From an uncultured Pseudomonadota bacterium (GTDB taxonomy: Bacteria; Myxococcota_A; UBA796; GCA-2862545), in NCBI GenBank assembly GCA_913061235.1, contig CAJXTB010000024.1, positions 1 through 64,000 of the forward strand: 64,000 bases of DNA. Reading direction: 5' to 3'. Below are positions 3,497-40,030 of this stretch, one piece after another. The notes beneath the pieces were generated by a model. That model was not told where the DNA came from and made no database searches. It worked only from the letters and a program-made list of their open reading frames with translations. Numbering within the stretch: the first letter of the stretch is position 1; each line of letters begins with the position of its first letter. The translations under genes and the position numbers were made by a program.

Positions 3497-4354
3497 TCAT
3501 GCCTCGGCCCACTCTGGATTGCTTATCGCCCAGGGACAGTTCACATAATTGAACACAGCTACGGCAACGGTGGCCGGCTTGGGCGGTCTGGCCCACCCAA
3601 GTAAGCAGCCCTGTCCTTCGAGTGGAAAGTCCCAGAACGTCACAATGATGGGCTCGGTGACGTCCTTCGGTAGCCGCACGGAGAGCGGCCTACGAGCTTC
3701 GGTCATGGTTGCCACCGCCCCGCCTCCTTGCAGGTCCACCCACAACTGCAGCACAGTGTTGGACTTCTTCGGACGGCACCGCAGACGTAGCGTGTGCCCG
3801 TTGTGCTCAAAGATACTTATTATTTTTAAGATGAGGTCGGTGGTCCACTCCGAGACCTCTTCGGGACTTTCGATGGTTAGCTTCTCGATGCGCACGTAGC
3901 CGTAGTGTTTCTTCGTTTCTGGACAGACATAAGTTTCCATCGATAGACTCTCAAAGTCCTTCATGCTGAAATCAATGTCGTCTTCCGATGGGATTGAGAT
4001 GTCTGCCATCCCTGCACCTTCCTGAGAGCCAAAGCCAATCGCAGGACGCAGAACGCGACCCCGCGCCGTCTGAAACAGGTCCGTGTGGCCTGGGGGCTGG
4101 ATGTGGACGGAATCGCCCACCTCGCAACAATCGCCGAGGCTGCTAGCCACATGGACTCGGATGCTCTCCGAACGATGGCCACCTTGGCCTTCGGCTGCGC
4201 GAATGCCGGCCAGAAGACCGCTTGAAGTCTCCGACGCGTCATACTTCAGGGCACAAACCGACCCAAAGGAAGGCTCGACCGGCGTAGTTTGCAATACTTG
4301 TATCGTCAGCCGCGTATTGGCATCGGAGGCTTGGCTATGTGGGGTGAATGTCAT
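3497..4354 (-). CDS. Hypothetical protein coupled to an HTH regulator (285 aa)
   Basis: No family recognised. The sequence looks like a soluble beta-rich protein: the C-terminal half alternates strands (HTLRLRCRPKK, VLQLWVDLQGG, RPLSVRLPK, EPIIVTFWDFP). Two cysteines sit near residues 76-77. The ATG at 4354 overlaps the stop of the upstream HTH gene as ATGA, so regulator and partner are made together. This repeats the architecture at 2.1-2.4 kb (HTH gene then ATGA-coupled partner). A toxin-antitoxin or repressor-antirepressor pair is possible but nothing in the sequence proves either. Confidence 0.5.
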   Translation of the reverse strand: MTFTPHSQASDANTRLTIQVLQTTPVEPSFGSVCALKYDASETSSGLLAGIRAAEGQGGHRSESIRVHVASSLGDCCEVGDSVHIQPPGHTDLFQTARGRVLRPAIGFGSQEGAGMADISIPSEDDIDFSMKDFESLSMETYVCPETKKHYGYVRIEKLTIESPEEVSEWTTDLILKIISIFEHNGHTLRLRCRPKKSNTVLQLWVDLQGGGAVATMTEARRPLSVRLPKDVTEPIIVTFWDFPLEGQGCLLGWARPPKPATVAVAVFNYVNCPWAISNPEWAEA

Positions 4355-4593
4355 GTGCCCGTCGCCGCGGGTCCGCGCGGTAACTTCACAGCTTTCACGA
4401 GTTCAACCTCGTCCAAATCGAACAAGTCAATCAATCTATTAACAACATGACGGGAGATGTCGTTTTGCCCGTTTTCCCAGGCGAGCACAGTGTTGTACGA
4501 CACGCCCAGTTTGTCGGCCAACGCCATCCTAGAGAGACTGTGTTGTCCCCGAAGTTGTTGGAGCCACTGGCCGATGGTTCTGATGCTACACAT
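4351..4593 (-). CDS. XRE-family helix-turn-helix repressor (80 aa)
   Basis: A compact Cro/C1-type HTH protein; MALADKLGVSYNTVLAWENG (about residues 23-42) is the DNA-binding signature. The ATG at 4593 lies inside an inverted repeat (4585-4603), so this protein or its divergent partner probably binds over its own start and autoregulates. No Shine-Dalgarno precedes the start, so the message may be leaderless. It is divergent from another XRE gene at 4678, as in phage C1/Cro-type switches. Confidence 0.75.
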   Translation of the reverse strand: MCSIRTIGQWLQQLRGQHSLSRMALADKLGVSYNTVLAWENGQNDISRHVVNRLIDLFDLDEVELVKAVKLPRGPAATGT

Positions 4594-4603
4594 GAAACAT
4601 GTA
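4585..4603. promoter_or_regulatory. Candidate operator O1
   Basis: Contains a perfect inverted repeat ACATG-AAA-CATGT. The 19 bases match 5186-5204 at 17 positions (GCTACACAT-n-AAACATGT). It overlaps the start codon of the minus-strand XRE gene and lies between two divergent XRE genes. Confidence 0.6.
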
Positions 4604-4677
4604 TACCCCGGAACGATGAACGGGTCCACACGGAGCATGTGTTGCGATGCGCAAAACCGCGCGCCAAGTGTTTGTAT

Positions 4678-5037
4678 ATGCAATCCTATTCCGAACTGTT
4701 GGCGCTTCTTGTGGACCTGAGAAAGGCCAGTGGAGACACCCAAGCCGCTCTTGCTCCAAAGCTTGGCGTGGGCCCCAGCACAGTTGGTAACTGGGAATCG
4801 CGGAGGGCAAAGGTGCCGTTTGACACTGCCGTCGCATGGATGGATTTGTATGGTCATGAGGTACGGGCAATGCCGAGCGCTTTAGGAGCGGTCCTTTTTG
4901 GGGAAAGGAATGACGATGCCGCGGCCACGTTGATCAGGGTTGCCAACCTCCTCGCCACGCTCGACGAGAGCGCGTTGCTTGACGTTGAGGCCATTGCAGT
5001 TCGCCTCGCGCCCCGTGATGCACGGAAGCGCGCTTAG
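4678..5037 (+). CDS. XRE-family helix-turn-helix regulator (119 aa)
   Basis: Residues about 6-60 form an HTH domain (TQAALAPKLGVGPSTVGNWE), followed by a helical C-terminal half (ATLIRVANLLATLDESALLDVEAIAVRLA) that could dimerise. The ATG at 4678 starts exactly at the domain; the frame is open further upstream but that part overlaps the divergent gene. No ribosome site is visible, so it may be leaderless. With the 80-aa XRE protein it forms a divergent switch; the operon starting at 5213 lies downstream and carries a copy of the shared operator in front of it. Confidence 0.75.
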   Translation: MQSYSELLALLVDLRKASGDTQAALAPKLGVGPSTVGNWESRRAKVPFDTAVAWMDLYGHEVRAMPSALGAVLFGERNDDAAATLIRVANLLATLDESALLDVEAIAVRLAPRDARKRA

Positions 5038-5150: not shown

Positions 5151-5165
5151 ACACATGAATTGTGT
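5151..5165. promoter_or_regulatory. Inverted repeat ACACA-n5-TGTGT
   Basis: A perfect 5-bp inverted repeat with a 5-base spacer, 48 bp upstream of the 55-aa gene and 35 bp upstream of operator O2. Its half-site ACACATGAA resembles part of O1, so it may be a weaker site for the same regulator. Confidence 0.35.
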
Positions 5166-5185
5166 GGACGGTATTCGCAACGCCA

Positions 5186-5204
5186 GCTACACATTAAACA
5201 TGTG
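5186..5204. promoter_or_regulatory. Candidate operator O2 before the early operon
   Basis: This sequence matches operator O1 (4585-4603) at 17 of 19 positions. It ends within the GTGGAGG ribosome site of the gene at 5213, so bound repressor would block the start of the whole operon. Two near-identical sites, one at the regulator pair and one at the operon head, is the expected layout of a lysis/lysogeny-type control circuit. Confidence 0.6.
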
Positions 5205-5212
5205 GAGGCGAG

Positions 5213-5380
5213 ATGGATACACACGCACCGACAAACCCGTATAAAGCTGGCTTCGCTGACATCGTCGTCTGCCCGCTGTTTGTGCTTCTTTGGATGTGGG
5301 CGTTCACCTTTGACGTTGGTTCTCCGATGTCTGAGTCTGCCATTGCCTCACCAGTCGTTGATGTGGCAGGCTCACCATGA
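5213..5380 (+). CDS. Small single-pass membrane protein, first gene of the operon (55 aa)
   Basis: A short open frame with a strong ribosome site, GGAGG at 5203-5207 five bases before the ATG. The protein has a polar N-terminus, one transmembrane stretch (ADIVVCPLFVLLWMWAFTF, about residues 15-33) and a short polar tail. Its stop overlaps the next start as ATGA (5377-5380), like nearly every junction in this operon, which supports it being real. Function unknown; small membrane proteins at this place in phages can act in host exclusion or lysis, but there is no specific evidence. Confidence 0.7.
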   Translation: MDTHAPTNPYKAGFADIVVCPLFVLLWMWAFTFDVGSPMSESAIASPVVDVAGSP

Positions 5381-5580
5381 GCCCCGTGGACATCAGTGTC
5401 ACGCTGCCCCCAGATGTTGCTGACATTGTGGGAAAAGGTATCAACCAGGGCGGCGATGAGGACATCGCCTTCGCACTACGGCTGCTAGGTTTCCGGTCGA
5501 AGGCGCGACGTGCTGGTGACCTCGACACCGTGCGTCAGATTGAGCGCGACTTGGTCAGGGCGTTCGCGGTGGATGCGTGA
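5377..5580 (+). CDS. Hypothetical protein (67 aa)
   Basis: A small, largely helical protein: VTLPPDVADIVGKGINQGGDEDIAFALRLLGFRSKARRAGDLDTV. The first half resembles the short ribbon-helix type N-termini of small phage regulators, but I cannot assign a family. It overlaps the genes on both sides (ATGA before, TGATG after), so it is translated as part of the operon. Confidence 0.6.
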   Translation: MSPVDISVTLPPDVADIVGKGINQGGDEDIAFALRLLGFRSKARRAGDLDTVRQIERDLVRAFAVDA

Positions 5581-5942
5581 TGGCCTCATTTCACGCTCCG
5601 ACGCTCATCTGGGCCTTGGACTTCGCGCACACCTTAGTGTCGCGGGTTTATGAATCCGGCTTGCCACTGGTCATCTCGACTCAAGCTGTAGATGCACTGC
5701 CCGTCATCACCTTCCGTTTGACGACTGGAACGCTGCCCCTTGGGGCCTACAACCTCGTTCGCGTCGTCTTCCAATCTGGCGGTGCCGAGCTGAAGATTGT
5801 GACCTGCGCGAATGAAGATGTTGTACGTACCTACGGGCCGGCCACCCTCGACAAAGACAGTGGCGTCATCGCGGCCAATCATCTGTGGGCGGACCTACTA
5901 CACGGCCTGACGGCGTACATGAGCATCCGGGTGCCGTCATGA
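5580..5942 (+). CDS. Hypothetical protein (120 aa), operon of unknowns
   Basis: No family recognised. Pattern: an N-terminal helix (LIWALDFAHTLVSRVYESG), then several beta strands (ALPVITFRLTTG, NLVRVVFQSGGAELKIVTCA) and a C-terminal helix. This helix-then-sheet layout recurs in the next three genes. The ATG at 5580 shares a base with the preceding stop (TGATG); a GTG at 5577 is the alternative. Confidence 0.6.
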   Translation: MASFHAPTLIWALDFAHTLVSRVYESGLPLVISTQAVDALPVITFRLTTGTLPLGAYNLVRVVFQSGGAELKIVTCANEDVVRTYGPATLDKDSGVIAANHLWADLLHGLTAYMSIRVPS

Positions 5943-6307
5943 ACTGGCTGGACACCAATTGGCAGGCCGAGTTCGTGTACGGGCTGTGCGAGCTGCTGGA
6001 CCGTTGCCGGCTTCCGGCCAAGCTCGTCCACATTGAAGTCCAGCCCGCCTTTGTGCTGCGCCTGACGCCCTCGGAGGCTGGGCTGATGCCATTCGCACCA
6101 AGACCGTCGTGGATGGTTCAGCTCACGTTCGTCGGTGGCAAGTGCAGTGTCCTCGTCAGCCGGACGGATGACGCGGCAGAAGCGAAGGTGGTTCTGGTGA
6201 ACGGTACCGCCCAGGCGACTGTCCTCGGTGTCTGGGATGGCGCGCTTCATGCTGCCCTCGCGCAAGTCCAAAGTGCCGCCAACTTCATTGATGTGGAGGT
6301 GGCATGA
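5939..6307 (+). CDS. Hypothetical protein (122 aa), operon of unknowns
   Basis: No family recognised. N-terminal helix with aromatic residues (WQAEFVYGLCELLDRC), then strands beginning HIEVQPAFVLRLTP and MVQLTFVGGKCSVLV, and a C-terminal helix. The IEVQP strand resembles VEVQPS in the protein at 6699. The ATG at 5939 overlaps the previous stop as ATGA. Confidence 0.6.
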   Translation: MNWLDTNWQAEFVYGLCELLDRCRLPAKLVHIEVQPAFVLRLTPSEAGLMPFAPRPSWMVQLTFVGGKCSVLVSRTDDAAEAKVVLVNGTAQATVLGVWDGALHAALAQVQSAANFIDVEVA

Positions 6308-6702
6308 ACCGACAACCTCCCGAGCCGTTTGTTCTGACTCCGGACTTCTCCATCACGGCCGAGTGGCGAGGTTCGTTTACCCGCTCGCTCATCGCATTCG
6401 TTGCGCCGCTGAGTGGGGAGTTTGTCGTCCGGTCGGAGCACGACAGGCCCGCCGACCCGGCTGAGTGCATCACTTCCATCGGCTGCGTTTCGGCGAGATT
6501 CCTACAACTTGAATTGTACGTGACCTCTGTGGACGCTGGCCAGGCCGTGCTCTCAACCTACCTAGGCTGGTCGGGGAAGACCGGACTCGTTGCTGTTCAT
6601 TCCCAGGAGCTGCCCACTGAGCCCGAGGAGGCGGCGGAGGACTGGCTCGGAGCTGTGGGCGGCGATTGGTTGGACTTCCTTGATGCGGGAGTCCGGTCAT
6701 GA
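6304..6702 (+). CDS. Hypothetical protein (132 aa), operon of unknowns
   Basis: No family recognised. Beta-rich core (SLIAFVAPLSGEFVVRSE, FLQLELYVTSVD) and an acidic C-terminal tail (ELPTEPEEAAEDWLGAVGGDW). Both ends overlap neighbours as ATGA, so its translation is coupled. Acidic, small and soluble: it could bind a host protein, but no evidence says which. Confidence 0.6.
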   Translation: MNRQPPEPFVLTPDFSITAEWRGSFTRSLIAFVAPLSGEFVVRSEHDRPADPAECITSIGCVSARFLQLELYVTSVDAGQAVLSTYLGWSGKTGLVAVHSQELPTEPEEAAEDWLGAVGGDWLDFLDAGVRS

Positions 6703-7145
6703 GCGTTGATCTCGCCCTCCGATGGGGACAGGACCGCGTGTGGTGGGAGGCGTTCGCCGTAGAGCTGCAGGCAGACTGCTGGGACGTCGAAGTGCAGCCC
6801 AGCGTCGTTGATGACGAGTACGAAGTTGTCCTTGTGCTTGGCCACGTTCATGCCGTGTTTAGTGCCTCCATGCACGTCGACCGACTGTGTGTCGCTGTAC
6901 AAGTCGTAGGAATGGATGAAACCCTGGACTTTGAACCCTTGGAGTGGTTCAAGCCAACGGATCTATTCCGGGACAGCCCGCCGCCTGCCAGTTGCCTTGA
7001 GCGTCCAAGTCCGGACGCTGCAACCAGCCGGTTCCGGCAGACCTATCAGAACTGCATCGTCGACCTCTCGACCGCCGTTGAGCGTCTTGTTCAGGGCGAT
7101 GTCAACGTGCTCCCAGCATTTACGGAGGGGCGTAATGATGCCTAA
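6699..7145 (+). CDS. Hypothetical protein (148 aa), operon of unknowns
   Basis: No family recognised. N-terminal helix (VWWEAFAVELQADCW) followed by strands VEVQPSVVDDEYEVVLVLG and LCVAVQVVG, then a longer polar tail. The first 70 residues follow the same order as the 122-aa protein at 5939, with a shared VEVQP/IEVQP strand, so the two may be distant paralogues. The start at 6699 overlaps the previous stop as ATGA. Confidence 0.6.
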   Translation: MSVDLALRWGQDRVWWEAFAVELQADCWDVEVQPSVVDDEYEVVLVLGHVHAVFSASMHVDRLCVAVQVVGMDETLDFEPLEWFKPTDLFRDSPPPASCLERPSPDAATSRFRQTYQNCIVDLSTAVERLVQGDVNVLPAFTEGRNDA

Positions 7146-7452
7146 TCCGAGTATTTTGCGCCAACTGCGTTGGTTCAGCGATGAACAACACGTAGAACAG
7201 CCGAACCGTGATGTAGCCGTCACCTTCCGGCACGCCGCTGAGGCATTGGTGGAGAGCGCTCACGAGACTTCTCCAGAGCTGCTGCGTGCTCTTGAGTTGC
7301 TCGTCACCGCCCACGACGCCGCACAGCGTGTGGCTACGCTTTGTCATGAAGACAAGGTCCGCGAGGACATGAAGCACCTCGTTGAGGAGCCTGAAAGGGC
7401 CGGAACGATTGCAACCGCTCCATCAAACAACGCATCTCGGAGACTCTCATGA
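7135..7452 (+). CDS. Hypothetical helical protein (105 aa)
   Basis: No family recognised. Almost entirely helical: TFRHAAEALVESAHETSPELLRALELLVTAHDAAQRVATLCHED. Two adjacent ATGs (7135 and 7138) overlap the end of the upstream gene by 11 or 8 bp; GGAGGGG at 7125-7131 is too close to be ideal for the first, so the second may be used. Ends in an ATGA overlap with the next gene. Confidence 0.55.
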   Translation: MMPNPSILRQLRWFSDEQHVEQPNRDVAVTFRHAAEALVESAHETSPELLRALELLVTAHDAAQRVATLCHEDKVREDMKHLVEEPERAGTIATAPSNNASRRLS

Positions 7453-7691
7453 GTGGAAACGTATCCACATGTCGGAGCCCAGTAGACACGGACCGTGCAC
7501 CGGCCAAGGATGAGTCAATGCTTCTGTTCTTGGCCAATGCCAACGAGCTGGTGGTGTCGGATGTTCCGCGGCTGACATCCGAACGGGACCACCTTCGTTC
7601 CTGTATCAAGGCGGGTTGGCTGGTCCGAAAGGGGGCTCGCTACGTCCTCACCAGTGCGGGCGCGAAGGCGCGGATGCGAGGTTCGGTATGA
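7449..7691 (+). CDS. Small winged-helix-like protein (80 aa)
   Basis: Residues about 24-78 (MLLFLANANELVVSDVPRLT, then LRSCIKAGWLVRKGARYVLT) have the spacing of a winged helix: helix, helix, then a two-strand wing that ends YVLTSAGAKAR. This is typical of small phage or plasmid DNA-binding proteins, and a similar YxLTxxG wing is common in MarR-like folds. Inference from pattern only. ATGA overlaps on both sides. Confidence 0.5.
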   Translation: MSGNVSTCRSPVDTDRAPAKDESMLLFLANANELVVSDVPRLTSERDHLRSCIKAGWLVRKGARYVLTSAGAKARMRGSV

Positions 7692-8047
7692 CCGTCAGCT
7701 CTCCCCCGTGCCCGAAGTGTCACACCCCAGTTCCGTCCACCGAGGTCGGCTGCATGATGTGCAAGGGCCTGGAAACGTCGCCGGCGGCCGTACTCGAGCA
7801 AGCCGACCAGCCAGCCCACGGTGGTCACTGCACCGACTGCCACGTCACCGCCGTCGTGTCGGAAGAGTGGGGACGGTGTGCCGCTCACTTCGTTGTGAAC
7901 CCCGTTCGTTGCCGTGTTGACGTCTGGCTCGTCTGCCAGGACGGCACTGTTCGTTCGGTCCGACACAGTTCACAGCTCTGGGTGGACGCCGTGGACGCCC
8001 GTCTCTGTGGGCTCATGCTGGCCTTGCCTGACCGGAAGTGCGCATGA
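7688..8047 (+). CDS. Zinc-ribbon-like protein (119 aa)
   Basis: Two CxxC-type knuckles near the start (CPKCHTPVPSTEVGCMMCKG, residues about 8-27) look like a zinc ribbon, and CTDCH plus a later CAAH (about residues 48-70) form a second candidate metal site. The C-terminal part is a small beta domain. Role unknown. The start at 7688 overlaps the upstream stop as ATGA; the longer frame upstream has no coding character. It immediately precedes the DNA methylase gene with ATGA overlap. Confidence 0.55.
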   Translation: MTVSSPPCPKCHTPVPSTEVGCMMCKGLETSPAAVLEQADQPAHGGHCTDCHVTAVVSEEWGRCAAHFVVNPVRCRVDVWLVCQDGTVRSVRHSSQLWVDAVDARLCGLMLALPDRKCA

Positions 8048-9048
8048 GGCCTCTACTCAAATGGCCAGGTGGCAAAGCCAGGATGGCGCATGTGATTGCC
8101 GATGCCTTCGGAGACGACAAGCCAGAGGGATATGTCGAGCCGTTTGCCGGTGGACTCGCCGTCTTCTGGCACCTTCACGACACAACAGCTCTCCGCAGCT
8201 TGCGTCGTAGCCCCGTCCTGTCCGATGCATGCGGCAGCCTCATGGTCGCTTACCGTGCGCTGCAGCAGCGGCCTGAAGAGGTGTGCAACGCGCTGCAAGA
8301 ACTCACGAAGGGGCACAAGAAACCGCGGGAATGGACTCGCGACTACTATCGCCTTCGGAGCCAGTTCAATGCGTACCGCGCCATCGTGCTCAAGCCGGTA
8401 GCCGCAGGTGAGGGCCGGGACGTCCCAGTCGGAGATGAAGCCGTGAAGCATGCGGCGCTAATGCTCTGGATCAATCGGGCCTGCTTCAACGGACTGTGGC
8501 GGACCAACCGGAGTGGAGCGTTCAACGCTTCTGCGGGCTCGTACCAGACCGTTCGGCTCGACTACGACGCCATTCGCCGAGGTGGAAGCATTCTCGCCAA
8601 CTTCCGTGCACAGCTAGGCTGGTGCGACTGGCGTGTATCCATTCGGAACGCTGGCGAAGGCGACTGGCTCTTTGTCGATTCTCCGTACCTGCCCATGGAC
8701 CGTCAAGCGGACTCGTTCACCGGGTATTCGGCTATTCGGCCGTGGGGACACGATGAACACCGCGAGCTCGCGTTCCAGTGTTGCTTGGCGGCCCGCCGTG
8801 GTGCGGTCGTCGTGCTCACCAACCATGACGCGACCGCCACACATGAGATCTACGACCAGGTCAACGGGTGGGAGGTCTACGCGCGGCCCGAGGTGACCCG
8901 GACCATCAGCCAGTCCGCCAACCGGATGAGGGCGACCGAGGTCGTTCTGACTCTTCGGCCCCGGGACGTCGTGGTGCCGTCGAACCCCAACACACAGCTC
9001 TCAATGCTCGGTGACGCTCCCGTCGCCCTGGAGGACCTGCATGTCTGA
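8044..9048 (+). CDS. dam: DNA adenine methyltransferase, Dam/D12 class
   Basis: A 334-aa protein of the D12 class (N6-adenine, alpha order). Motif I region starts at the N-terminus with KWPGGKARM and continues as YVEPFAGGLAVFWHL (AdoMet binding). The catalytic motif IV is DSPY in FVDSPYLP, where most relatives have DPPY. A C-terminal motif VVVLTNHD fits motif VI. Target is probably a short site such as GATC by analogy with Dam, but specificity cannot be read from the sequence. The ATG at 8044 overlaps the previous stop as ATGA; GTG at 8038 is an alternative. No matching restriction endonuclease is adjacent, so it is likely an orphan phage-type methylase that protects or regulates the element's DNA. 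Confidence 0.85.
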   Translation: MRPLLKWPGGKARMAHVIADAFGDDKPEGYVEPFAGGLAVFWHLHDTTALRSLRRSPVLSDACGSLMVAYRALQQRPEEVCNALQELTKGHKKPREWTRDYYRLRSQFNAYRAIVLKPVAAGEGRDVPVGDEAVKHAALMLWINRACFNGLWRTNRSGAFNASAGSYQTVRLDYDAIRRGGSILANFRAQLGWCDWRVSIRNAGEGDWLFVDSPYLPMDRQADSFTGYSAIRPWGHDEHRELAFQCCLAARRGAVVVLTNHDATATHEIYDQVNGWEVYARPEVTRTISQSANRMRATEVVLTLRPRDVVVPSNPNTQLSMLGDAPVALEDLHV

Positions 9049-9505
9049 TGCACAGGCCATTGATGTCGCTTCACTGCAGAATGACCCCCTTGCCTGCAAG
9101 CTGCTCGCCATCATCGGGCGGTCGCCTGATGGGGTTCTGGACTCAGAGTTGGAGACCAGAGTCAAAGACCCACGGTTCCACGATGTACTGGACCGCCTGG
9201 CGTCGTCGGGACTGGTCACAACGGAGAGCGAGACCACTTCTACGCGTGACCGCCTACGACACCGGGTACCCGTCGCCGCTCTGCGGTTTCGGTTGGCACC
9301 TCCTGGATTCAAGCCGGACACTGCGCATGCCCACAACCCTGTTGGGGCAGCCCGTTCAGGCTCTGATTTGCAGGGGCTCTGGCGCGAACACACGAGGCTT
9401 CGTCGGCTTGCGCGGCAACACAATCGAAAGGCCACTCTTGTCCTAGGCGAGATTCGCTCGCTCTCCTGCAAGCTCGATGAGGAGTCGCCGCCATGCGAGT
9501 CCTAG
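9041..9505 (+). CDS. Hypothetical helical protein, possible winged helix (154 aa)
   Basis: No firm family. Residues about 18-75 (LLAIIGRSPDGVLDSELETR, then VLDRLASSGLVTTES) have the order of a winged helix. The C-terminal third is basic and coiled-coil-like (LWREHTRLRRLARQHNRKAT). The ATG at 9041 overlaps the dam stop by 8 bp and gives the domain a natural start; a longer frame upstream has no support. Confidence 0.5.
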   Translation: MSDAQAIDVASLQNDPLACKLLAIIGRSPDGVLDSELETRVKDPRFHDVLDRLASSGLVTTESETTSTRDRLRHRVPVAALRFRLAPPGFKPDTAHAHNPVGAARSGSDLQGLWREHTRLRRLARQHNRKATLVLGEIRSLSCKLDEESPPCES

Positions 9506-9867
9506 CCGCGCCACGCTCGCTCACCTTGCGTCGCGGCTCCAAGCCCGGCACTCGTCACCGGTGGTGGCTTGGTGGGCGCGAGATTCAAGAGAACGTGGAG
9601 CTTCTGGTCCAGATGGTCCAACAGTCCAGCTACGTCACCCGTCCTGGTTTCGGCCGGTATGTGTGTACCGAGGTCGACTGGTTGCCGGTCCGTGCCACCT
9701 TCCAAGACATCGAAGATGCCCCCGAGGTCTCGAAGGGCGCCGCAAAGGCAGATGGGCGTCTGTTGTGCCTCAAGCTTCCGTTCCGATGCGGCGGGACCGT
9801 CTTGGTCCCTGCACAGACGTCCATGCAGTTCGCGTGGCCCGGCCCTACAGCGACAAGGGCGGCGTGA
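9493..9867 (+). CDS. Hypothetical protein (124 aa)
   Basis: No family recognised. A basic N-terminus (LRRGSKPGTRHRWWLGGREI) is followed by a mixed alpha/beta region with two cysteines. It overlaps the previous gene by 13 bp and the exonuclease gene by one base (TGATG), consistent with the operon. The basic, Trp-rich start suggests nucleic acid contact, but that is a guess. Confidence 0.5.
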   Translation: MRVLAAPRSLTLRRGSKPGTRHRWWLGGREIQENVELLVQMVQQSSYVTRPGFGRYVCTEVDWLPVRATFQDIEDAPEVSKGAAKADGRLLCLKLPFRCGGTVLVPAQTSMQFAWPGPTATRAA

Positions 9868-10475
9868 TGGACCTTCCTGTCATCGTCATTGACACAGAGA
9901 CGACCGGTCTGCCAGAGCACCCCGATGCGGTCGCCATCGAGATTGCGCTGGTGCTTCTCATGCCGGATGGCTCCAAGCCGTTCGCACTGTCTTCGTTGCT
10001 CAGGCCGGAAGACCCCAACGAGATTGTCTGGACCCACACTCATGTTCGCGAGACCATGACCATCCACGGCATCACGCCGGCGCATGTTGCACTCGCTCCT
10101 GTGGCCAAGCGCGTCGATGACCTGCTCGACTACACCCGTCGATATGCTGTGGGCTGCTACGGCCAACAGTGGCCCTGCGAAGACTTGGCTTGGACGAGCT
10201 GGCGTACCGAGTTCGAAGCCGAGATGTTCCGGCGGTCGCTTCCGAAGGTTGCTGGTTGGCAGACCGCTCCGTGCATTTGGGAACTCGCCCGCGAGTCGTT
10301 CCGTCCGGAAGACTTGGCGAAGCCTCACTATCCATCCATCAAGACGACAGCGCATGCGCTTGGCCTTCAGGCAGACCGAAACACGCACCGTGCGTTGCCA
10401 GATGCTCTGCTCGCGGCTGATGTCCTCTACGCCCTCATCCATCGAGACTCAACCCAACCATTGGAGGTGAGCTGA
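9867..10475 (+). CDS. DnaQ-like 3'-5' exonuclease (DEDDh)
   Basis: A 202-aa protein of the RNase T/DnaQ superfamily. Exo I is VIVIDTETTGLPEH (residues about 5-18) with the metal-binding D and E; Exo II falls in the middle with the D of VDDLLDYTRRYAVG; Exo III has H and D in NTHRALPDALLAADVL, the DEDDh arrangement. It would remove nucleotides from 3' ends of DNA or RNA. Stand-alone copies like this occur in phages and islands as repair or host-DNA-degrading nucleases. The ATG at 9867 shares its first base with the upstream stop. A near-perfect ribosome-site sequence (GGAGGTGA, 10463-10470) lies within its last codons. Confidence 0.85.
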   Translation: MDLPVIVIDTETTGLPEHPDAVAIEIALVLLMPDGSKPFALSSLLRPEDPNEIVWTHTHVRETMTIHGITPAHVALAPVAKRVDDLLDYTRRYAVGCYGQQWPCEDLAWTSWRTEFEAEMFRRSLPKVAGWQTAPCIWELARESFRPEDLAKPHYPSIKTTAHALGLQADRNTHRALPDALLAADVLYALIHRDSTQPLEVS

Positions 10476-10567: not shown

Positions 10568-11020
10568 TTACTCGTCGCCGGACCGCTGTTGCATGCGCGT
10601 TCCGTCCAAGAACCAGACCCGGTCGTCGTGGAGCTGGAAGAGCCGGTCGAGGTAGTCGATGCTCCACCAGTCAAGGGTGGCTCGGCGTTGGGGTTTTGCG
10701 ACCTTGGACAGCACGTTCAGCAGTCCAACAACGTCGGGAGTCCCACCGGGAGCTCGCCGGACCAGGTCCACCAAGCCGATGAGCAGCTCGTCCGTTCCAT
10801 CTTGCTCCTCGCGCTTGTCTTCGGGGAGTCCGGACTCCCGCAGGTAGTGCCCGACGCCCAGAAGCAGCAGCTCGTAAGGCTCCGCTGCCGTCTGCTTACC
10901 GACCCTGAAGTCGGAGGGGGCGTCGGCAGCATCGAGTTCGGCGACTGCGCGTGCAGCGTGGCCAGCGCCTTGAAGCAAGACCTCCATCGTCATCCGCTTG
11001 CGAAAGGGGCTCCCGTTCAT
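10568..11020 (-). CDS. Hypothetical protein on the opposite strand (150 aa)
   Basis: No family recognised. A soluble helical protein with a regular heptad-like core (AEPYELLLLGVGHYLRESGL, LLIGLVDLVRR, VVGLLNVLSK) and a conserved-looking C-terminal WWSIDYLDRLFQL. It starts at 11020 behind a good ribosome site (GAGGAGAAG, six bases before ATG) and its codon choice matches its neighbours, so I prefer it over the 225-codon frame on the plus strand that covers the same bases. It is transcribed against the long plus-strand operon and divergently from the ParB-like gene. Confidence 0.65.
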   Translation of the reverse strand: MNGSPFRKRMTMEVLLQGAGHAARAVAELDAADAPSDFRVGKQTAAEPYELLLLGVGHYLRESGLPEDKREEQDGTDELLIGLVDLVRRAPGGTPDVVGLLNVLSKVAKPQRRATLDWWSIDYLDRLFQLHDDRVWFLDGTRMQQRSGDE

Positions 11021-11141: not shown

Positions 11142-12542
11142 ATGACCGCTAGATCTCCCCGTGAATTGGTCGCTCAGCGCCTCACACTCCCGGTCAAGTC
11201 CCTGACCTTCGACCGTGCTCTACAGTGTCGTGTGGAGATGGATGATGCCATCGTTGACGAGTACGCGGCCGCGATGAAGGACGGGGCCGTCTTCCCGGCC
11301 ATCGATGTGGTGGACGTAGACGGCAAGCGCTTTGTTGTGGATGGCTGGCACCGTGCCTACGCCACGAAGAAGGCAAAGCTCAAGCAGATCGAAGCAGTGG
11401 TGAAGAAGGGAACGCGCCGCGATGCCATCCTTCATGCGGTCCACGCGAACGGCGACCACGGTGTCCGTCGTTCACACGATGACAAGCGGAGGGCCGTCCG
11501 CACGCTGCTCATGGACCCAGAGTGGGCGAAGATGAGCAACCGGAACCTCGCAGGCCTTGGGCGAGTCAGTCATGCGTTCGTGGGCCTGGTGCGTAAGCAC
11601 TACCAGCTCGGCAGTGGGGAACTGCTCACCGAAGAGCGCATTGATGAGATTGACGGTGAACCACCCCAGGAGTGGTTGGACCTGTGTGCGGGCCTGCCCG
11701 AGTGGGACAAAGCGAATGTGCTGCGGCTCCGACAGTGCTTCAATTTGTCGGCGCTAGAGCTGGCTTTGCCGTACAACTACCGGTCGGAACACATGATTGC
11801 GGCGATTGGAATGCAGCTCACGCGAATCGCTGGTCGGTCTGGAGACCCGTGGCCGTGGCCCGCGGACAAGATGCCGCATCAGCGCGAAGTTCGTGTTCGG
11901 CACCTAGTGGACTCGTTGGACATGTCTGCAGCGCTTCAGTCGCCGGCGTGTCCGGAGCGAGTGGAGCTGTTCTTTGTCTGGGTCAAAACGAAGGGTCTGG
12001 AGAACCTGCAGGACCACAGCATCGACAAGCTACTCGAGGACTTTTCCGAATGGCCTGCGTTCGTCCGGATGCTCAAGCTTCGTCGCTCTCAGCTCAAAGC
12101 GGACCGGGAGGCTAAACCGCCCTCTGACTGGGACCAGGCCAAGGCAATCGAAGGCGAGCGGGATGCTACCCGCCAAGCGACAGCCATTCGGTCTGCCGAA
12201 ACGCAAGTGTTGAAGCATGTGCGAGCGAGAGGCTTGCAGTCTGCTTCTCGAAATGTGCTTCGAGAGGTCAACGGCGAAGCGGCCAACGCGGAGTGCTCCA
12301 ACGCTGCGTGTGACGGTTGGATGGTTTCCCAGGTGTACGGTGAGCCGCTGTGTTCGGTCTGCAACAAGTCGGCGTGCAGGACAGTTGAGCTTCATGATTG
12401 GGCGTTTGAATACGTTCAATCCCAAGTGCGGGCAGGTGTTGACCTGGTCATTGATGGCCGTGTGCTGTCGATGGAAACGTTGCCACTGCTACCGCAGAGC
12501 GAGACGTCTGTTGCCACCGAATCTGGAGTGGTCGCCAAGTGA
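11142..12542 (+). CDS. ParB/sulfiredoxin-fold DNA-binding protein
   Basis: A 466-aa protein with a ParB-type N-terminal domain. Residues about 10-95 hold the ParB/Srx fold, with FVVDGWHRAYATKKA matching the GxHR-type motif (here DGWHR) that binds nucleotide in this superfamily. A helical region follows (VRRSHDDKRRAVRTLLMD..., then NRNLAGLGRVSHAFVGLVRK), which resembles an HTH. Near the C-terminus, CSNAACDGW...CSVCNKSAC looks like a zinc site. Proteins like this in phages and islands act in partition or as DNA-binding nucleases. No parA is adjacent. Start ATG 11142 has GGAG seven bases upstream. Confidence 0.75.
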   Translation: MTARSPRELVAQRLTLPVKSLTFDRALQCRVEMDDAIVDEYAAAMKDGAVFPAIDVVDVDGKRFVVDGWHRAYATKKAKLKQIEAVVKKGTRRDAILHAVHANGDHGVRRSHDDKRRAVRTLLMDPEWAKMSNRNLAGLGRVSHAFVGLVRKHYQLGSGELLTEERIDEIDGEPPQEWLDLCAGLPEWDKANVLRLRQCFNLSALELALPYNYRSEHMIAAIGMQLTRIAGRSGDPWPWPADKMPHQREVRVRHLVDSLDMSAALQSPACPERVELFFVWVKTKGLENLQDHSIDKLLEDFSEWPAFVRMLKLRRSQLKADREAKPPSDWDQAKAIEGERDATRQATAIRSAETQVLKHVRARGLQSASRNVLREVNGEAANAECSNAACDGWMVSQVYGEPLCSVCNKSACRTVELHDWAFEYVQSQVRAGVDLVIDGRVLSMETLPLLPQSETSVATESGVVAK

Positions 12543-12581: not shown

Positions 12582-13046
12582 ATGGGTGAGACCGGAAACG
12601 TGGTGCGGTTTCCTGGCGTGAAGGGGCGTTTGGCGTCTCCTGTGCGCTTCCGCGCCACCGATCAGGACATCCTCGCCTTGTTGGGCGGAACGCTGAGAAC
12701 ACTGCAACGTAGGGTGAAAGAGACCACCCACGCGAAGCTCGCCAGGCCGTGGCGGATGTACGGTGGCCGTCGCCGATGGAATTTGGCGGCACTCGATCAG
12801 TGGTTGGAGGACACAGAACAATGGCGAGCACAAGAACGTACACGACGAAAACGGGCGCGAAACGGTGGTCGGTCCGCTGGCGAGATCCAGACGGCGCACA
12901 GCGGGAAAGGCGAGGACTTCCCGACAAGAGGTCTGCCACAGCGCTCAAAAAAGACGTCGAGGCCGCAGTCGGGCAAGGCTTCAGATGGGAGCCGCGGGAT
13001 GCTCGACCGGTACCGACGCTCTGGGACCTCTCAGAAGACCTCCTGA
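12582..13046 (+). CDS. Excisionase-like HTH protein overlapping the integrase
   Basis: A 154-aa frame whose first 85 residues form a plausible MerR/excisionase-type HTH (RATDQDILALLGGTLRTLQR ... WNLAALDQWLEDTEQW), the class that directs excision with a tyrosine recombinase. From 12821 on, this frame overlaps the integrase gene out of frame for 226 bp, and residues beyond about 85 are basic and low-complexity (RTRRKRARNGGRS), as expected when another gene constrains the DNA. The ATG at 12582 is preferred; GTG 12552 and ATG 12557 are possible. Xis role is inferred from the HTH and the position before int. Confidence 0.55.
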   Translation: MGETGNVVRFPGVKGRLASPVRFRATDQDILALLGGTLRTLQRRVKETTHAKLARPWRMYGGRRRWNLAALDQWLEDTEQWRAQERTRRKRARNGGRSAGEIQTAHSGKGEDFPTRGLPQRSKKTSRPQSGKASDGSRGMLDRYRRSGTSQKTS

Positions 13047-14002
13047 TCGAGTGTCGCGTGCGTGGATTGCGGCCCCGAAGCATCGAACGAAAGGCCCAGT
13101 CCATTGGCCTATGGTTGCGCTGGCTGGAGGATTCGCTTGGACGAGCCCCCATCTGCGAAGATCTCGACCGAAAGATGCTCACCGCATTTGCTGTTTCTTT
13201 GGCCGATCCGGTCACGGGACGGCATCTACATGGCCGAGCTGCCAGTACGATCTATAAGCATGTCGCAGAGGTCGAACTGGCTTGGCGTTGGTTCTGGGAC
13301 CGCGCGGACGAGGAGAAGTATCCGTGTCCGCGCCCACGCACGATTGGGCTGCGAAATCCGCCGCCGGCGGAGCGGCCGTCGCCCAGTTGGTCGGACATGG
13401 ACGCCGTGTGTCTGGCCGCTGCCCGCATTCCGATTCGCTCCTCCTCGCTTCTTCGTTGTGGCTTGGACCGGCACCCGTTGCACTACATCGCCGTTACTAT
13501 GCGGTACACCGGACTTCGGGTTCAGCAGGTCATGGACCTCCGATGGTCCGACTTTGACCTGGAGCATTGCATCATGACCGTGCGCCCAGAGTTGGGAAAG
13601 AGCCAGCAAGAGCGCCGTGGCCGCGACGTTCCCCTGTCCGCGCATTTCGTTGCCGAGCTCAAGACCTGGCCACTCGCCAGCGAGTGGCTGGTTCCCACCT
13701 GGCAAGCGGGGAGCAAACCACGTGTGGTTCGTGCCCGCGACATGGTGAAGGCGTGGATTGCGGCTGGCATCGACGAAGCCAAGTGGAAGGGCCGCCCTGA
13801 TCACGCATTCCGAGCTGGCCTGCAGAGTGGCCTGAAGCGTTTGCGGGCTGACGATGAGGCCGTGAAGCAGCTGGTTGGACACTCACGCGGTGTCCGCGGG
13901 CGCTACGTAGATGCGCCTTCGTTGCCAATGCACGAAGCCGTAGGGCTGATTCCACCGCGTTTGACTGACTCAGTTATGCGTGAGACAGAGGCTGCAGCAT
14001 GA
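12821..14002 (+). CDS. int: Tyrosine recombinase / integrase
   Basis: A 393-aa phage-type integrase. Residues about 4-50 are an arm-binding domain (TYTTKTGAKRWSVRWRDPDG), about 80-190 the core-binding SAM-like domain, and about 215-370 the catalytic domain. Catalytic residues: Arg in RYTGLRVQQV, Lys in RPELGKSQ, the His-x-x-Arg of DHAFRAGL, the second His of LVGHSRG, and the nucleophile Tyr in RYVDA. It ends 71 bp from the 3' end of selC, so it most likely integrates and excises this element at that tRNA gene. Start ATG 12821 matches the arm-domain start. Confidence 0.9.
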   Translation: MASTRTYTTKTGAKRWSVRWRDPDGAQRERRGLPDKRSATALKKDVEAAVGQGFRWEPRDARPVPTLWDLSEDLLIECRVRGLRPRSIERKAQSIGLWLRWLEDSLGRAPICEDLDRKMLTAFAVSLADPVTGRHLHGRAASTIYKHVAEVELAWRWFWDRADEEKYPCPRPRTIGLRNPPPAERPSPSWSDMDAVCLAAARIPIRSSSLLRCGLDRHPLHYIAVTMRYTGLRVQQVMDLRWSDFDLEHCIMTVRPELGKSQQERRGRDVPLSAHFVAELKTWPLASEWLVPTWQAGSKPRVVRARDMVKAWIAAGIDEAKWKGRPDHAFRAGLQSGLKRLRADDEAVKQLVGHSRGVRGRYVDAPSLPMHEAVGLIPPRLTDSVMRETEAAA

Positions 14003-14023
14003 TGTGGGCACAGAGTGGGCACA
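14003..14023 (+). repeat. Tandem GTGGGCACA boxes next to the attachment site
   Basis: GTGGGCACA occurs at 14004-14012 and 14015-14023, 11 bp apart (one helical turn), directly after the integrase stop. The 13 bases CAGAGTGGGCACA (14011-14023) are repeated exactly at 1758-1770. Short phased repeats between int and the attachment core are typical places for arm-type integrase or excisionase binding sites; chance cannot be excluded. Confidence 0.4.
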
Positions 14024-14073
14024 AGACGATGGCGCAAAAATTAACAGAGCTTAAAGGCCTGCTATCGAATGGT

Positions 14074-14174
14074 TGGCGGCGGATGATGGGAGTCGAACCC
14101 ACCGGAGACCGCCTCTCGACGTCTCCCGACCAGTTTTGAAAACTGGGGCCGGCACCGGCCTGGCGACACCCGCC
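14074..14174 (-). tRNA. selC: tRNA-Sec (anticodon UCA)
   Basis: Selenocysteine tRNA. The anticodon stem CCAGT/ACTGG encloses loop TTTCAAA with anticodon UCA (14137-14139), which reads UGA. The acceptor stem is 8 bp (GGCGGGTG with CATCCGCC, one G-U pair) and the T stem 5 bp (GTGGG/CCCAT around TTCGACT), the 8/5 layout unique to bacterial tRNA-Sec. The long variable arm has a GGAGAC/GTCTCC stem. Discriminator G is followed by an encoded CCA. 101 nt including CCA. Its 3' end faces the integrase, and selC is a classic island insertion site, so the gene most likely doubles as the attachment site (the last bases of the tRNA would be the crossover core). Confidence 0.93.
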
Positions 14175-39124: not shown

Positions 39125-40030
39125 TTACTCCATGCCGCCAGCGGCAGCTTCAATGGCGCTGCGGGAGAACAGCTCGCTGCGCTGGTCCAACAGGTTCTGT
39201 GCCTTAATCTTCTCAAGAGTGTTCTCTTGAGCCACAGGACCCCCGATGCCCTCTGGAGCGTCCAAGACAAAGCGAATATCTTCGTCAAACATCGCTACGT
39301 TCTCGGTCGCGACGGCCAAGTACGTGGCGCGAAGCACACGGGTGCCGAGGTAGTCGGGTGCACCTTCGATGGATGCTGTGAAGTACTCGGCGCTGCGGTC
39401 GAGGTCCTGACCGGCGAAGCTAGGAAGTACTGCGTAGTAGCTGCCCCAATAGCGGGCTGGACCGTAGTGGTAGAAGGTCGCGTTGAGCTCTTCGGCGCGG
39501 CCGATGTAGGCCTTGACGGTCGGGAGGTTCTTGAGGGTCTTGGACAGGCCCTGAATCTTGCCCCACTTGCCGATTGCGGATGCGGACCAGTACAAGCAGG
39601 GGACGTCTGCGATGGTTGCCGAGGCAACGGCGTCGCGCTCGCGCTCACCTTGCTGAATACGTTCAGCGATGTCCGGGTTGAGCGCCAGGCAGGTGGCGCC
39701 GTATTCGATGGCCTTGCCCCAGCGTTCAATCTTCGTTTCCTTCTCGTCTGCGTGGGCATCACCGTACAGGTACCAGCCGCGGGTCAGTCGCTGGAGGGCG
39801 GTGCGGTTGGCCGGGTCCATTGCCAGGACTTCTTCATAGGCGAGCAGCGTAGCGTGCAGCTTGCTGGCGTCTGAGCGAGCAGCCCACATGCCTTGGGCTT
39901 CTTCAAGCTTGGCTGCAATCGCGGTTGCGTCAGCGCTGGTGGCGGCTGGAGTGGGGGCGGTGATGGCGACGGGGGTCTTTCCACCACATGCTGTAAGGGC
40001 CAGAAAAACAGAGAGGGCGAGTGTGCGCAT
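39125..40030 (-). CDS. TatT-like TPR lipoprotein of a TRAP transporter
   Basis: A 301-aa lipoprotein (MRTLALSVFLALTACGG, Cys15) made of TPR-like helices (TLLAYEEVLAMDPANRTALQRLTRGWYLYGD and later repeats). It matches the TatT/TRAP-TPR type known from Treponema (TP0956), which forms a trimer with the DctP-like partner and is thought to hand over hydrophobic ligands. Its position directly before the binding protein and permease supports that. Start ATG 40030; an upstream extension has no signal peptide. Confidence 0.82.
   Translation of the reverse strand: MRTLALSVFLALTACGGKTPVAITAPTPAATSADATAIAAKLEEAQGMWAARSDASKLHATLLAYEEVLAMDPANRTALQRLTRGWYLYGDAHADEKETKIERWGKAIEYGATCLALNPDIAERIQQGERERDAVASATIADVPCLYWSASAIGKWGKIQGLSKTLKNLPTVKAYIGRAEELNATFYHYGPARYWGSYYAVLPSFAGQDLDRSAEYFTASIEGAPDYLGTRVLRATYLAVATENVAMFDEDIRFVLDAPEGIGGPVAQENTLEKIKAQNLLDQRSELFSRSAIEAAAGGME

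Follow-up and report, generated by a model that had tools for sequence, protein, structure and literature searches.

The window analyzed here is a stretch of 64,000 nucleotides at the start of contig CAJXTB010000024.1 (C24) from the assembled genome of an uncultured bacterium of Myxococcota type, and its left part carries a plus-strand block of 13 genes, named g1 to g13 (5213-10475), in what appears to be a temperate phage, or an element resembling one, that is integrated in the chromosome (Table 1). All 12 junctions within the block are overlaps of 1-13 bp, of which seven are ATGA and one is GTGA (becoming TGATG if g3 starts at 5580), while the rest measure 11, 8, 13, and 1 bp. Since about 15% of co-directional gene pairs overlap in most prokaryote groups, according to an excerpt of the source (PMC6728339), an unbroken run of 12 overlaps is unusual, and such a run is not tied to any particular function. 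Shine-Dalgarno (SD)-like stretches are present at 13 of 13 starts, each scoring in the top 23% of what random positions in the operon give. By codon usage, with 17 long open reading frames (ORFs) from the host part of the window as reference, the called frame ranks first of six in 10 genes and narrowly second in the other three, g6, g9, and g11. Judged by overlap, SD site, and frame, g1 to g13 can be regarded as real genes. A long form of g13, with an upstream extension at 9477-9866, was rejected because its codon frame ranks fifth.

An earlier, sequence-only reading of this DNA had called the same 13 genes, had described junctions overlapping by 1-13 bp and mostly as ATGA (7 of 12), and had proposed a single translationally coupled unit. 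The genes and the overlaps stand, and the coupling is probable from the overlaps, SD sites, and coding frames. It had also regarded most of the genes as familyless, in agreement with the 11 of 13 proteins that match no Pfam model at the cut-off, and its placing of a methylase and an exonuclease in the block was confirmed by the matches of g10 to PF02086 (81.8 bits against a cut-off of 22) and of g13 to PF00929 (35.7 bits against a cut-off of 24).

The g10 protein is of the Dam type and matches this family over nearly its whole length, with hits to phrog_56 (E 1.7e-41) and DpnM (2dpm, E 8.7e-19); TIGR00571 was matched at E 4.5e-40 by one of 18 proteins scanned, which we infer to be g10. In motif IV, the DSPY of g10 is aligned to the DPPY of DpnM, and the host's own second Dam-like protein, encoded on contig C5 (L002:1016-1894, minus strand), has DPPY, unlike g10. 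The g13 protein matches both PF00929 and phrog_192 (DNA polymerase exonuclease subunit, E 4.6e-18) and contains DTETTG and HRALPD, which we take to be the DEDDh motifs DxE and HxxxxD. A tblastn search with g13 at 1e-5 matched none of 50,697 phage records. Depletion of GATC, as a trace of Dam protection, showed no clear difference between the element (20 sites against 49.9 expected) and the host part (83 against 175.8). For the other proteins, inspection by eye suggests that g1 is possibly a single membrane helix, g8 and g11 possibly winged helices, and g9, from its CxxC pairs, possibly a zinc ribbon.

Table 1. Coordinates of the predicted switch, the 13-gene block, and the right end of the integrated element, given as positions in the window.
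Feature	Position	Strand	Length (aa)	Remarks
CI-like helix-turn-helix (HTH) repressor	4351-4593	-	80	HTH_31 1.9e-10, HTH_3 2.4e-8; coding frame ranks first
Predicted operator pair 1	4588-4642			sites 4588 and 4626, 38 bp apart; at the divergent regulators, overlaps repressor start
Cro/CI-like HTH regulator	4678-5037	+		divergent from the repressor; HTH_31 4e-8, Phage_CI_repr 0.0032
Predicted operator pair 2	5151-5205			sites 5151 and 5189, 38 bp apart; overlaps g1 SD
g1	5213-5380	+	55	strong SD; no family
g2	5377-5580	+	67	frame rank 1; no family
g3	5577-5942	+		start GTG 5577 or ATG 5580; W-x3-F-x3-L at residue 11
g4	5939-6307	+	122	W-x3-F-x3-L at residue 8
g5	6304-6702	+	132	W-x3-F-x3-L at residue 21
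g6	6699-7145	+	148	W-x3-F-x3-L at residue 15; frame rank 2
g7	7135-7452	+	105	weak match to phrog_5120, function unknown, E 0.0016
g8	7449-7691	+	80	sub-threshold PF25213 only, E 0.023
g9	7688-8047	+	119	CxxC pairs; no family at threshold
g10	8044-9048	+		Dam-type N6-adenine methyltransferase
g11	9041-9505	+	154	no family at threshold
g12	9493-9867	+	124	frame rank 1
g13	9867-10475	+		DEDDh 3'-5' exonuclease
Gene without family match	10568-11020	-		best of six frames
ParB-like protein	11142-12542	+		phrog_1033 7.6e-13
Tyrosine integrase	12749-14002	+		PF00589 1.7e-9, phrog_1 3.1e-24
Arm-type repeat GTGGGCACANAGTGGGCAC	14004-14022	+		
Attachment (att) core	14072-14095			24 bp, at 3' end of tRNA-Sec gene
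tRNA-Sec gene	14078-14174	-		directly behind integrase; ARAGORN and Rfam RF01852

A predicted switch and a probable integrated element

Two divergent HTH regulators precede g1, and a search with the pattern ACACATNNANNATGTG, allowing up to 2 mismatches, located palindromes of type ACACATGAAACATGT at four positions that form two equally spaced pairs. More than two such sites per 650 bp were found in 0 of 200 Markov-1 sequences of window length. The start codon of the repressor, which overlaps an operator, was chosen by us. These divergent regulators and paired palindromes are arranged as in a lysogeny switch, of which the 13 genes would be the early operon. The forward operon probably ends before the minus-strand gene that lies between it and parB, and this gene gave the strongest codon signal (0.35) of the set tested.

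The evidence for integration comes from the sequence at and behind the integrase gene, the true start of which is probably downstream of the one given in Table 1. An identical copy of the 24-bp att core is present in the same genome on a second contig, C8 (39410-39433), and exact copies of the arm-type repeat occur in the 7.18 Mb genome only at 14004-14022 of C24 and at C8:39277-39295, in both cases on the element side of the core. From the shared core and repeat we conclude that the two ends of a single integrated element are probably found on C8:1-39433 and C24:1-14095. The element would then measure at least about 53 kb, with the operon inside its right end. The sequence past the att copy on C8 looks chromosomal, its first gene being read by eye as an RNA-binding protein, and an excisionase-like ORF is found on C24 downstream of the operon (phrog_66, E 3.1e-5). 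A tRNA-like 3' half, read by eye and uncalled by ARAGORN, adjoins the arm repeat on C8 (L025:1300-1347, C8 ~39210-39257) and is perhaps a remnant of another integration.

Contig C8 encodes a 1697-aa DarB-like antirestriction/methyltransferase-helicase protein in the part assigned to the element (L026:4756-9849), a VapE-like domain (C8:27058-28407), a glycosyl hydrolase 46, a resolvase and, near the C8 end, a polymorphic-toxin-type protein with PT-HINT and Ntox10 domains (L027:8895-10160) and a protein of the Abi_alpha family (L027:13733-14512). C8:15483-23867 (L026/L027) is taken up by one very large ORF of secreted type, which has FG-GAP repeats and weakly matches a Pfam TcdB middle domain.

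Taken together, g1 to g13 would form an early operon on the lytic side of the switch, in a temperate phage or phage-like element whose integration site is the tRNA-Sec gene of its Myxococcota-type host, and we estimate the probability of this reading at about 0.75. It is based on the chain of overlaps, the SD sites, the coding frames, the HTH pair, and the four paired palindromes; on the integrase, the tRNA-Sec gene, and the att core and arm repeats shared by C8 and C24; on the matches of g10 and g13 to phage families and the DarB-like protein on C8; and on the ParB neighbor, which is related to loci in viral contigs (one of them, L055, with a CI-like match), and the occurrence of the adenine methylase gene mox in Myxococcus phage Mx8, as described in an excerpt of PMC6070905.

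Several observations weigh against it. The element is split over two contigs that both break inside it, and the link between C8 and C24 comes from the att and arm repeats only. A sigma-70-like promoter was looked for before g1 and none was found. Virion genes were not recognized among the proteins of C8 and the window that were scanned, in one scan among the best 25 of 33 families, and a search for the phrog_2 terminase yielded a single weak hit, which is on a different contig (C14). As no virion gene was recognized, the wording "temperate phage or phage-like element" is used, and the word "phage" in it is an inference. A satellite or a genomic island could also account for the VapE-like, polymorphic-toxin-type, and Abi-like genes on C8, and VapE is common in satellites. 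The element might be a phage satellite or another integrative island with a CI/Cro-type switch, in which case the operon would be the early region for its own excision and replication. The lack of a terminase or capsid in the scanned parts, the VapE-like domain, and the island-like cargo all speak for this alternative, whereas the DarB-like protein and the phage-type exonuclease fit a full phage, and, since neither contig contains the middle of the element, genes for the virion may be located there. On balance we consider a satellite or island rather unlikely.

Under the favored reading, the repressor bound to its operators would silence g1 to g13 in the lysogen, and upon induction a single transcript starting just upstream of g1 would be translated by stop-start coupling. 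The Dam-type g10 would methylate the DNA of the element, perhaps shielding it from host restriction, the DEDDh exonuclease g13 would serve replication or recombination, and the small proteins, four of them perhaps from one ancestor, would redirect or block host functions.

Two features at the extreme left of the window are recorded for completeness. It opens with untrimmed adapter bases (1-49), probably not part of the genome, in which a 34-base match at 16-49 is presumably to the Nextera adapter, and a replication-initiation-like protein is encoded on the minus strand at 406-1587 (phrog_270, E 1.2e-4); DnaA_N was matched by one protein of the set that holds this gene, probably this gene itself.

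Four neighboring proteins, g3 to g6

The four consecutive proteins g3 to g6 each contain the signature W-x3-F-x3-L near the N terminus, which 0 of 18 other proteins tested carry and which was found within the first 40 residues in 1 of 415 background proteins. The motif was chosen after looking at the sequences. In comparisons that considered any shared triple of residues, one that was equally informative occurred in 0 of 2000 shuffles, and no shared triple was seen in the other eight four-gene runs tested in the operon. Equally good quadruples of natural proteins numbered 1 in 20000 when drawn from the 415 background proteins, a rate that is approximate because these proteins are unannotated and were selected with a filter on codon-position GC.

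Beyond the signature, a weak similarity is seen between g3 and g4 (local p 0.033, global p 0.010, and p 0.022 for the tail after the motif), which is not significant after correction for 91 pairs, and the other five pairs have no significant similarity beyond the motif. BLASTP of g3 against g4 returned no alignment at E 100, and the search for DNA repeats across g3 to g6 gave two short, chance-like families only. A profile of all four proteins, run against 63 genomes of the order, recovered its own four members and one match at E 0.17. The strand I/VEVQP, which the sequence-only reading had offered as further evidence of kinship, adds little, since hhalign gives p 0.055 for g4 and g6, and by our estimate chance alone would produce a match of 4-5 residues in some pair among four proteins of this kind.

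Structure prediction gave low-confidence alpha-beta-alpha models for g4 alone (pLDDT 42) and for g3 with g4 as alignment (pLDDT 54), and the two models are not independent because g4 was used for g3. The best match of the g3 model in a Foldseek search of the PDB had E 0.33, and the best in a search of viral folds, to an uncharacterized 100-aa protein, had E 0.0064. The VIA fold matches of g3 (best Z 7.4, frataxin CyaY 7.2, T4 MotA C-terminal domain 5.8) were not used as evidence, as a Z under 8 may reflect a common arrangement only.

The order of an N-terminal aromatic helix and strands that had been proposed for these four proteins is partly confirmed, by the signature present in all of them, while wider similarity is weak and confined to g3 and g4, and the accompanying proposal of tandem duplication fares likewise, with a common N-terminal helix signature on one side and weak support beyond it on the other. 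The profile comparison that had been suggested as a check gave the weak g3-g4 tail match and a p of 0.055 for g4 and g6, and in the suggested comparison of structures, which covers g3 and g4, both low-confidence models show a helix, strands, and a helix.

The motif may instead have come about in g3 to g6 through convergence, or by chance, without any kinship among the four, as the five of six pairs without similarity past the motif, and the failure of the four-protein profile to find anything else convincing in 63 genomes, would suggest. What argues for descent instead is the rarity of natural quadruples as good, the lack of a shared triple in the other operon runs, the weak alignment of g3 and g4 along their length, and the helix, strands, helix order of both low-confidence models. 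We regard chance or convergence as a serious possibility, yet a doubtful one. It is likely that g3 and g4 share an ancestor, and possible that all four do. That g3 to g6 constitute a new, tandemly duplicated alpha-beta-alpha family of early proteins, whose copies have each been adapted to a separate target in the host such as a defense enzyme or a part of the host polymerase, is a speculative proposal with a small chance of being correct. If true, the element would carry a small set of inhibitors that are variations on a single scaffold and are supplied jointly through translational coupling.

Roles of the small genes and known systems

A role for the small genes in host takeover or anti-defense is plausible from the position of the operon alone, since a place among the early genes of an integrated element, under operator control, fits host takeover. 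The contig with the other end of the element, C8, encodes the DarB-like antirestriction protein. Early operons often yield unknown inhibitors of host functions. No match to a family or fold of known function was found for g1-g9, g11, and g12 in Pfam and PHROGs or, for g3, in fold searches. The small genes could also be defense cargo that is expressed in the lysogen against other phages, as might be expected of genes without a known family beside a methylase and with an Abi_alpha family gene elsewhere on C8. Against this, the block begins right behind the switch operators and forms one unit with an exonuclease of DNA metabolism, and PADLOC, applied to 18 proteins as one set, gave among the best 25 of 36 families mainly models of methylases, exonucleases, and regulators, with weaker matches to PDC-S48, PD-Lambda-5_B, and RmrA. 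Because the block seems to be under lytic-switch operators, defense cargo is the less likely role, and we consider it improbable.

Relatives of the small genes are scarce. The joined query of g1-g9 and g11-g13 found no relative at E 0.01 in the phage collection and none in the plasmid collection. With g1-g8 joined, the only other match in 377 genomes of the phylum was to G230:C313 (E 1.4e-4, 32% over 75 residues), across the junction from the end of g4 into the first residues of g5, in a search that is weak because it scored at most 2 candidates per genome. Scans of viral contigs with the g3/g4 alignment, g4, g5, g6, g10, and g13 gave no relative, such scans requiring short, nearly exact peptides.

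The ParB-like gene is the gene of this neighborhood with ready relatives, found in 7 of 63 genomes of the order (that of the window included), at 18 loci in named genomes, and at 19 in viral contigs, among which L055 has the CI-like match upstream. When the ParB-bearing loci were compared with the operon, g1-g10, g12, and g13 had no match at E 0.05 and g11 matched only at 0.048; further matches were at the level of chance. The start of g8 is identical over eight residues to the start of one ParB relative (L018), a match that at E 0.43 was put down to chance. Gene chains upstream of the parB genes in these relatives comprise short overlapping runs in some cases and nothing comparable to the present block, in a walk whose greedy choice of starts also missed g11-g12 in the window. 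The ParB neighbor therefore recurs and the early genes do not, and phage early regions are usually not shared while their neighbors recur.

The block presents 11 compact proteins without a known family in one unit, together with a predicted switch that is directly testable. The arrangement is ordinary, most of the small proteins resemble nothing known, and four neighbors seem to be of one design. The set g3 to g6 is the part most worth a test at the bench, and it could show how early proteins arise by duplication.

We judge the temperate phages of Myxococcota to be thinly sampled. In the excerpt of PMC6070905, the myxobacterial phage Mx8 is temperate and has an adenine methylase, an integrase, and an HTH protein, as does the element described here, while its attP lies inside int and the att core here is the 3' end of tRNA-Sec. 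The phage collection gave no match to the 11 small proteins and the exonuclease joined. The operator sequence and the accessory genes differ from those of lambda-type early operons under CI/Cro control, whose layout of divergent regulators, paired operators, and one early polycistronic operon is the same as that predicted here.

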